Assembly (NCBI GenBank): GCA_021771715.1
Contig: JAETOO010000008.1
Location: 85,190-149,189, forward strand
Source of the DNA: Oscillospiraceae bacterium
Lineage (GTDB): Bacteria; Bacillota; Clostridia; Lachnospirales; Lachnospiraceae
Direction: 5' to 3'
Length of the DNA stretch: 64,000 bases
Shown: piece after piece, positions 5,500-56,325 of the stretch
How the letters are laid out: the number at the start of each line of letters is the position of its first letter
Numbering within the stretch: the stretch's first letter is position 1
Made by a program: the position numbers and the translations under genes
The notes under the pieces: model-generated
Seen by the model: the letters and a program-made list of their open reading frames with translations, nothing else
Told to the model about the DNA's origin: nothing
Databases searched by the model: none

Positions 5500-5528
5500 A
5501 TTCTACCCGATTGCCCCTCCTTTCGCAA
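5500..5528 (-). promoter_or_regulatory. Sigma-A type promoter for the small gene-pcrA operon
   Basis: On the minus strand TTGCGA (5523-5528) and TAGAAT (5500-5505) are separated by 17 bp, followed about 25 bp later by the ATG at 5473. Confidence 0.6.
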
Positions 5529-5588
5529 GCACATTTTTTGAATCGCCGGCGGCAGATGCGCAGGTTTTCAATTATAGTTATTTTTATT

Positions 5589-9471: not shown

Positions 9472-9830
9472 GTCCCTGCAATCCTCATCAAAGGACTGCA
9501 GGGACGAGTCATCATCACTCGCGGTTCCACCCTGGTTGTCTGAAAACGGCCGTCGCACCACGGGCAGCGCGTTTCTCAAACCTCTCGCTTCGACGATAAC
9601 GGGGTCACCGGACCGGATTGGGGCCACTCCGAGGTAGTTTTCAAATGGTTCCGCATAAGGGCTTTCCAGCAGCCGCCCTCTCTCTGGATGCTTCCGCATT
9701 TTACTCTTCTCATCTGCGTGTTGACATATCGTTCAGCCATACCTGAAAGACAAGCCGTACAAATAGCTTGCGCAGCAAACGCGGCTGCGGCTCACCCAGC
9801 GTCCTGACTGAACGGTTACTTTGCTTTTGA
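9472..9830 (-). ncRNA. T-box leader controlling thrS
   Basis: On the minus strand a long leader starts below the promoter at 9839-9866. A stem I candidate is closed by GTTCAGTC and GGCTGAAC (about 9731-9818). Then follow GAAGAGTAAAATGCGG, the AGAGAG stem segment and the T-box core AGGGTGGAACCGCG (9520-9533), which pairs with the uncharged tRNA acceptor end. A terminator hairpin (9472-9505; GTCCCTGCA with TGCAGGGAC, then TTTTT) closes the leader. By known T-box logic, uncharged tRNA stabilises the antiterminator. I could not place the specifier codon with certainty; the thrS gene downstream implies a threonine codon. Confidence 0.9.
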
Positions 9831-9866: not shown

Positions 9867-9934
9867 CCGGAAATCCCCAAAAATGTCCGAGTTACCGTTC
9901 AGCTTGGGGCCGAAGTGCGTCTTATTTGGCGCTA

Positions 9935-13740: not shown

Positions 13741-13839
13741 CCAAAAAAACTCCTTTACTGAAATATCTTGTATCGTACCACACACCGCCATGTTTTTCTA
13801 CTGGAATTTCGCTTTCTTTTTATTGGAGCCTTCTCCCCG

Positions 13840-14127
13840 TAATAGTTCAGCCAACCCGGACGAGAAGAATGCAGGGCCCCCCGAAAGCTCCGAATCGCTC
13901 GTCTACAAGTACTAAGGTCTCAGAAGGCCTGCGCATCTGCCGCTGGCAACTCACAAAATGTGCCTGATGCACATTTTGCTCAGACAGTGCCAGCTAAAAA
14001 TCTTGCATGAAAGCAGGATTTTTACAGATACTCCGACCTCCTGAGACCCAAGTACTTGTAAAGACTCGCTATAGTCGCTTTCCGGGGGCCCTGCATTCTT
14101 CTCTGACAGTGGCTGGCTGAACTGTTA
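13840..14127. repeat. 288-bp cloverleaf-like palindromic element
   Basis: No gene lies in 13741-14242; instead there is a long imperfect inverted repeat. The termini TAATAGTTCAGCC and GGCTGAACTGTTA are inverted. The arms continue with GAGAAGAATGCAGGGCCCCC (plus AAAGC) and, further in, ACAAGTACT and GGTCTCAG against their complements near 14037-14060. In the centre are two adjacent hairpins. Hairpin A (13942-13994) has stems GCTGGCA/TGCCAGC and CAAAATGTGC/GCACATTTTG; hairpin B (13995-14024) has TAAAAATC/GATTTTTA. It sits between the amino acid ABC operon and the metal exporter gene. It could be a MITE-like element or a structured RNA. Confidence 0.85.
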
Positions 14128-14242
14128 CCAGTATGACTGTTCCGTCCCCTTTTTATCCACAGGAAGCTGCATTGAAAGAGGATGCTGCATTTTGCAACAC
14201 TCTCTGTTTTCTCCTGACTCTTTGGCAGGCAATGATTCCCTC

Positions 14243-15979: not shown

Positions 15980-16072
15980 CAGCATGCTCAGTTACAGTTC
16001 AGGCAGGATGCCATGCAAGCTTGCACGGTCTGTCCTCCCATTTTTTTTCATAGCTGAACCGTGAGCATGCTC
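15980..16072. repeat. Palindromic intergenic repeat, family 2, copy A
   Basis: The core CAGGCAGGATGCCAT...GCTTGCACGGTCTGTCCTCCCATTTT is bounded by inverted ends (GTTCAG/CTGAAC and an outer GCATGCTCA/TGAGCATGC). It lies 14 bp after the binding-protein stop codon. A second copy is at 20876-20941. On the minus strand the repeat may form a stem-loop in the transcript between the binding-protein and permease genes. Confidence 0.75.
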
Positions 16073-16085
16073 AAGGTGATCCGTC

Positions 16086-56135: not shown

Positions 56136-56325
56136 GGGAAAATTTGATTTGTATTGCAGAGATTGTCACAGTTCTGGCATTCAGGACGAGAAGATCCTTC
56201 GGCGGTTGCTTAACTATAAGGCATTAGCTGTTTAAATCATAGCCCAGTTCCTACTACAATCATAATCAATATTCAGCTGAATCATAACCAAGTTTATATC
56301 GGCTTTTTCCAGTGATTTATTGTAG

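Follow-up and report, generated by a model that had tools for sequence, protein, structure and literature searches.

The window analysed here, a stretch of 64,000 nucleotides from the genome of an Oscillospiraceae bacterium (Lachnospiraceae in the GTDB lineage; contig JAETOO010000008.1), carries a MITE with an unusual, conserved and branched fold-back core, and this is a real finding. The reading which we prefer, with about even confidence, is that the element is a non-autonomous TIR transposon (MITE) of a family producing 8-bp target duplications, whose conserved core likely works as a folded RNA of the minus strand. The element occupies 290 bp and is one base longer at each side than the stretch first marked. 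Its parts are listed below, where A1 denotes the alignment of 33 copies from the same genome.

13839-14128, no strand assigned: whole element, 290 bp, non-autonomous transposon copy; ends set by motif
13839-13853, plus strand: left terminal inverted repeat GTAATAGTTCAGCCA, two mismatches to the family motif GTTACAGTTCAGCCA
14114-14128, minus strand: right terminal inverted repeat GTAACAGTTCAGCCA, one mismatch to GTTACAGTTCAGCCA
13862-14103, minus strand (the likely used strand): conserved fold-back core, columns 11-254 of A1
13862-13888 with 14077-14103, no strand assigned: arms of stem P1; both partners substituted in 22 of 27 pairs
13897-13939 with 14025-14069, no strand assigned: arms of stem P2, which has internal loops; both partners substituted in 20 of 36 pairs
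13942-13994, no strand assigned: branch P3, in which 13942-13947 pairs with 13989-13994; contains hairpin P4
13954-13963 with 13969-13978, no strand assigned: hairpin P4 inside branch P3, pairing in A1
13995-14024, no strand assigned: hairpin P5, adjoining P3, pairing in A1
13889-13896, no strand assigned: unpaired TCCGAATC, 4 of 8 columns invariant in 33 copies and the rest at 73-97%
13979-13988, no strand assigned: unpaired or weakly paired CTCAGACAGT, almost invariant, other species included

The imperfect palindrome consists of three nested arm pairs of 18 nt (89%), 27 nt (96%) and 36 nt (81%). RNA folding of the marked stretch yielded -152.7 kcal/mol, compared with -79.4 ± 5.1 kcal/mol for 200 shuffles (z -14.3). 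According to gene calls made with our own codon-usage script, no gene overlapped the element, and both flanking genes were read on the minus strand. The arm pairs, the fold and the lack of an overlapping gene confirmed the initial annotation of a gene-less palindromic element with inverted-repeat arms. Two abutting perfect hairpins had also been described in its centre; the hairpins at 13954-13978 and 13995-14024 do abut, but the second contains a single mismatch in the window copy.

Searching the own genome (4.18 Mb in 54 contigs) for copies with blastn, as had been proposed, revealed 33 that were full or nearly full, the window copy among them, together with 6 truncated at contig ends and a number of fragments. 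The other full copies were 77-93% identical to the window copy. The 33 copies constitute A1, in which the 3' arm of the copies L040:1970 and L041 is incomplete at its end; the 6 truncated copies and the pieces in L057 were excluded. Contig ends cut the core in L042, L047, L052, L053, L055 and L056, with about 0.3 such copies expected, and these breaks may reflect trouble with the hairpins in sequencing or assembly. Relatives of the element were also found in other species. A covariance model built on the inner core (R1) matched in three of 46 congeners (G043, G024 and G004) and in three of 298 genomes of a further family sample (G263, G311 and G307, the match in the last being shortened). No blastn match was obtained in 40 relatives, of which 24 were congeners; weak matches in relatives may be missed because the search filters were strict. 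The element had no match in the plasmid or phage collections, nor did an exact-pattern scan of named genomes return any, in a set from which records near the window's own genome were possibly left out. The closest named relatives of a protein neighbouring the window element came from Lachnospiraceae genomes (best 73% identity). Rfam models matched neither the element (E up to 5) nor any of ten related loci (E up to 0.5).

The ends of the element are 15-bp inverted repeats of the motif GTTACAGTTCAGCCA, which appeared in no publication of the literature searched. With up to 2 mismatches, this motif had 131 matches, and the reversed motif used as control had 15. When at most 1 mismatch was allowed, the own genome contained 70 occurrences, G043 34, G004 30, G024 8 and G041 6, and 20 of 47 genomes had at least one. 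Elements bounded by pairs of such ends ranged from 30 to 391 bp. Across 34 end pairs (one left end, in L058, being counted twice), the 8-bp flanks agreed at 0.592 as compared with 0.282 for shuffled partners (0 of 2000 shuffles), and agreement at other lengths from 2 to 10 bp was 0.19-0.35. The agreement of the 8-bp flanks far above the shuffled level indicated that the family makes 8-bp target duplications, and exact or near 8-bp duplications were also present in G004, G043 and G041. Among the end pairs were those of four full-length core copies, in which 8, 6, 5 and 3 of the 8 bases were duplicated. No target duplication is seen at the window copy itself, its flanks TTCTCCCC and CAGTATGA agreeing in 1 of 8 bases. 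The family thus shows terminal inverted repeats, short length, no gene over the element, 33 full or nearly full copies and a target duplication of fixed length (8 bp, absent at the window copy), and the proposal of a non-autonomous transposon holds on account of its inverted ends and 8-bp duplications. The initial annotation had further suggested a TA-targeting transposon, as the stretch first marked has TA at either end. This reading is contradicted and barely credible, since the TA is part of the terminal repeat, the duplication is 8 bp long and the 2-bp flanks agreed no better than background (0.191 compared with 0.270 shuffled). The differing end in G004 was considered as the end of another transposon and this was rejected, as locus L252 has the same end outside an extra stem.

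Sixteen end-bounded elements were re-examined. Five held part of the core according to blastn and one by eye (L059, 49 bp); the other 10 had no similarity to the core, yet were predicted to fold. Deletion derivatives that retain these ends but lack most of the core were L057, L059, L060, L066, L069 and L209. Duplicated bases amounted to 8/8 in L057, L059, L066 and L209, 7/8 in L060 and 2/8 in L069. Since target duplications of 7-8 of 8 bases accompany five of these six, the core is dispensable for mobility. In the own genome, further elements with such ends and other cargoes (L061-L065, L067, L068, L070, L071 and L077) had no blastn similarity to the core and look palindromic; elements of G041 with the same ends and other cargoes (L268-L270) were examined at their ends only. 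The transposase search was limited to models of IS256, ISL3 and IS66 and to two loci with a lone end, the loci of G004, G043 and G041 being covered at their ends only. IS256 and ISL3 models were without match, the IS66 transposase model gave one 31-residue match below the cut-off, and the reading frames at the two lone-end loci contained no transposase. The mover of the element is one we infer, because no transposase was found in this limited search; a transposase supplied in trans would move the element.

The evidence for a conserved fold comes from A1, in which 93 pairs were predicted. In these columns, 97.5% of 3051 cells pair, compared with 86.4% in shuffled alignments. Substitutions on both sides of a pair, the covariation asked for initially, affected 55 of 93 pairs, compared with 25.6 after shuffling and 13-22 with partners slid, so that covariation supports the fold. 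The element is neither a single copy nor lacking in relatives, and its stems carry paired substitutions, so that nothing named initially as refuting the annotation applies. The unpaired columns were more often invariant (34 of 56) than the paired ones (64 of 186) in the 33 copies. Eleven copies forming a more divergent subgroup, which was chosen by eye from shared core bases, have ends near background, with on average 7.4 of 18 matching bases at the left compared with 6.9 and 8.7 compared with 7.6 at the right; the other 22 copies reached 10.8 (left) and 13.9 (right) of 18. One of these eleven, the copy at position 1939 of L048, retains its right end at 14 of 18. In the same 11 copies, 41 of 56 unpaired columns were invariant, and the majority base was the one found in the other 22 copies at 53 of 56 unpaired columns. 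In other species the motifs ACTC and CTCAGACA were almost kept and the stems differed. Selection on the bulges is likely, because 41 of 56 unpaired columns are invariant where the ends are near background, and selection acting after insertion would be the simplest reading of these alignments. The core is kept in copies whose ends are no longer recognisable, and the cell thus likely uses it. The supposition that the element is more than a decaying MITE was borne out by the intact core of the 11 copies with ends near background.

An explanation without any function was also weighed, in which the core is ordinary MITE cargo whose stems were matched by template switching and whose copies are alike by gene conversion. 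Gene conversion from copy to copy could indeed cause the likeness of the cores, and the other cargoes with the same ends are palindromic too. However, the bulges are invariant more often than the stems, still so in copies with worn ends, and they are almost invariant in other species; the mobility of elements without the core also speaks against this explanation, which we regard as rather unlikely.

The two strands were compared with control RNAs from the same genus, RNase P RNA (27 sequences) and large SRP RNA (30). For RNase P, 27 of 30 loci were used, L248-L250 being excluded for longer inserts, and the loci came from the 41 of 47 genomes with a match; for SRP RNA all 30 of 30 loci were used, likewise from 41 of 47 genomes. 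The wobble share was defined as G.U among G.U plus A.C in pair columns dominated by Watson-Crick pairs. In the element it amounted to 0.70 (0.57-0.81) on the minus strand and 0.39 (0.26-0.53) on the plus strand. The controls gave 0.88 (RNase P) and 0.95 (SRP) on the true strand, and 0.39 and 0.84, respectively, on the wrong strand. The wobble share is not a clean strand test because SRP read on the wrong strand still reaches 0.84, and the minus-strand value of the element (0.70) lies below both RNase P and SRP. Counting columns on the minus strand resulted in a small excess, 31 with G.U as compared with 23 with A.C. The minus strand was predicted to fold better in 32 of 33 copies and in 13 of 14 relatives, the latter being the full-length rows from 26 matches which include reverse and partial ones. 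Among the controls, the true strand folded better in 26 of 27 RNase P and 30 of 30 SRP sequences. The minus-strand direction was also seen in G024 and G004; in G043 the strands cannot be told apart (minus 18:16, plus 18:13). Much of the folding advantage of the minus strand goes back to traits shared by descent. An RNA on the plus strand is less likely, since the minus strand folds better and the plus-strand wobble share equals that of RNase P on the wrong strand. Choosing the RNA strand by the stability contributed by G.U pairs and tetraloops has a precedent in the L17 downstream element, as described in the available part of PMC2864571.

The initial annotation had likened the interrupted arms to a folded RNA. 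In favour of this, the minus-strand wobble share of 0.70 is nearer to the controls; the mode of substitution in the stems fits less well. Transversional changes made up 0.55 (0.44-0.65) of the double changes in the element, compared with 0.20 in RNase P and 0.03 in SRP. Parsimony gave 85.6 transitional to 81.0 transversional events for the element and 44.6 to 10.0 for RNase P. In unpaired columns, the transversion share of differences was 0.40 in the element and 0.39 in RNase P. Stepwise compensation should lower the share in stems, as in RNase P (from 0.39 to 0.20), whereas copying of one arm onto the other should not, from which we infer arm copying. Judging from this share, the double changes do not look like ordinary RNA evolution. 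Because 55% of the double changes are transversional, the stems probably also change by arm-to-arm copying of DNA, and this would account for transversional pair swaps being as frequent as transitional ones. Against arm copying stand the presence of one-sided intermediates, a share of double changes by distance much like that of RNase P in most bins, a weak clustering of neighbouring double changes (1.20 compared with 1.11) and the low transversional share of hairpin P5 (0.29). According to published proposals, template switching can give rise to RNA stems and preserve them (available part of PMC8794818) and can also make the arms of inverted repeats alike (available part of PMC8604942). As the stems probably also change by DNA arm copying, the covariation is weakened as proof of RNA. 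Part of it is of the kind that DNA arm copying would make, so that the RNA reading is plausible on the minus strand and unproven. Covariation is commonly regarded as the best evidence for a functional RNA; here it is very strong, yet its pattern is unlike that of two RNAs from the same genus. The transversional share of double changes together with the wobble share per strand is suggested as a tree-free check for stems renewed as DNA.

The placement of the copies was examined with the same gene calls. None of 39 copies lay inside a gene; in L034 the start of a called gene overlaps the copy by 91 bp. For 32 copies with both neighbours called, 13 lay between divergent genes, 18 between tandem genes (9 in each orientation) and 1 between convergent genes. 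The 40 core-less elements with the same ends were distributed similarly (29 tandem, 8 divergent, 0 convergent and 3 at an edge), and 38 element-free gaps comprised 27 tandem, 9 convergent and 2 divergent ones. The avoidance of convergent gaps belongs to the transposon family because the core-less elements share it; it is also compatible with a functionless core. A regulatory placement of the core was rejected for the same reason. Among 89 reading frames beside 52 copies, compared only with each other, 23 similar pairs were found, mostly in one group, and no gene family stood beside most copies. The protein beside the window copy, which belongs to the main similar group, is presumably an ABC-transporter ATPase. 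No promoter-like or terminator-like site was found in a scan of the window copy. Visual inspection of the minus-strand consensus had suggested a TTGCAG/TATAGC-like promoter pair, which was rejected, as it is not conserved in A1.

According to the preferred reading, something in the cell would recognise the fold, and selection would then likely keep the bulges after insertion. The used form would probably be minus-strand RNA made by read-through of neighbouring transcription, a source suggested by the varying flanks of the copies and the empty promoter scan of the window copy. Read-through would yield the minus strand in part of the copies only, because the tandem orientation is even (9 and 9). 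The stems would probably also be renewed as DNA, one arm being copied onto the other by template switching on an extruded hairpin. In its widest form, the proposal would be a class of folded RNAs of Lachnospiraceae, transposon-borne and made from the minus strand, which is kept at dozens of loci after the ends wear, with arm-copied stems and selected bulges, so that covariation becomes uncoupled from function; this wider claim is a tentative one. Worn ends together with intact bulges would make the adoption of MITE cores by bacteria testable.

The same core might instead act as DNA, as a hairpin formed upon strand separation or within a cruciform, its bulges being recognised by a protein as in integron attC, with transcription being irrelevant. 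The transversional double changes and few wobbles are in line with this, as are the even orientation to neighbouring genes, the lack of a promoter-like site in the window copy and the six copies cut by contig ends instead of about 0.3, as if a DNA hairpin hindered sequencing or assembly. However, the asymmetry in favour of the minus strand is not expected if the strands are equal, even if such an asymmetry could also arise in single-stranded DNA of one strand, and no recurring protein gene family was seen beside the copies among the 89 reading frames. A core acting as DNA is possible and seems less probable to us than the minus-strand RNA. Like attC sites, in which structure and unpaired features are recognised and one strand is preferred (available parts of PMC2727003 and PMC6393395), the element is an imperfect palindrome; unlike them, it belongs to a family with inverted ends whose transposition leaves 8-bp duplications.

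Structured RNAs found within mobile elements include the omega RNA of HEARO/IscB and the bridge RNA of IS110. The element resembles these systems as a multicopy mobile element with a (here putative) structured RNA and differs from them in having no Rfam match and no recurring gene family among the 89 flanking frames. The bacterial MITEs ERIC/IRU, Correia/NEMIS, RUP, CIR and YPAL are units of about 100-200 bp, several of them with terminal TA, and the RNAs of ERIC and NEMIS were proposed to act on neighbouring mRNA (available part of PMC2229807). Like these units (same part of PMC2229807), the element is small and multicopy, with inverted ends and a target duplication in its family, and a transcript of it would be predicted to form long stem-loops as theirs are. 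It differs from those MITEs, as far as they are described there, in its 290 bp, the 15-bp end GTTACAGTTCAGCCA, the 8-bp duplication and the conserved bulges of its branched core; the 127-bp unit with terminal TA given there for ERIC/IRU (PMC2229807) is not matched by 290 bp and an 8-bp duplication. Among the mobile/repeat sequence candidates (MRSC) described in the available part of PMC11109978, MRSC-65-2 consists of one long stem in which UYCCGG is repeated, and a transposase gene sometimes lies nearby; the authors of MRSC allow the structure to matter as DNA. MRSC are frequently associated with genes for a transposase, integrase, nuclease or helicase. Strong covariation, dozens of copies per genome and inconsistent orientation to genes are shared with MRSC (PMC11109978, same part), whereas the element differs from MRSC-65-2 as characterised there in its branched core within inverted ends, and no linked gene family was seen among the 89 flanking frames, which were compared with each other. 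No description of the element was found in the literature searched, including the available parts of PMC11234323, PMC2229807, PMC11109978, PMC8794818 and PMC2864571.

Further traces of the family were observed. At 2030-2130 of L027 the right part of the element forms a partial tandem duplication, with 6 bases differing from its neighbour over the part compared, 5 of them C to T; right-side duplications of this kind also occur in L031 (copy at 2026) and in L054. Elsewhere in the window, a 39-nt core fragment lies on the minus strand at 5526-5564 (87% identity), and two degenerate end motifs with 3 mismatches each face outwards at 9805-9819 and 9891-9905, 86 bases apart. At 56165-56210 a degenerate end motif is followed by GGACGAGAAGAT, which may be what remains of the element's left part. 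A second element of 75 bp with the same ends and other cargo is located at 15991-16065 and is flanked by an exact 8-bp duplication, CATGCTCA, at 15983-15990 and 16066-16073.
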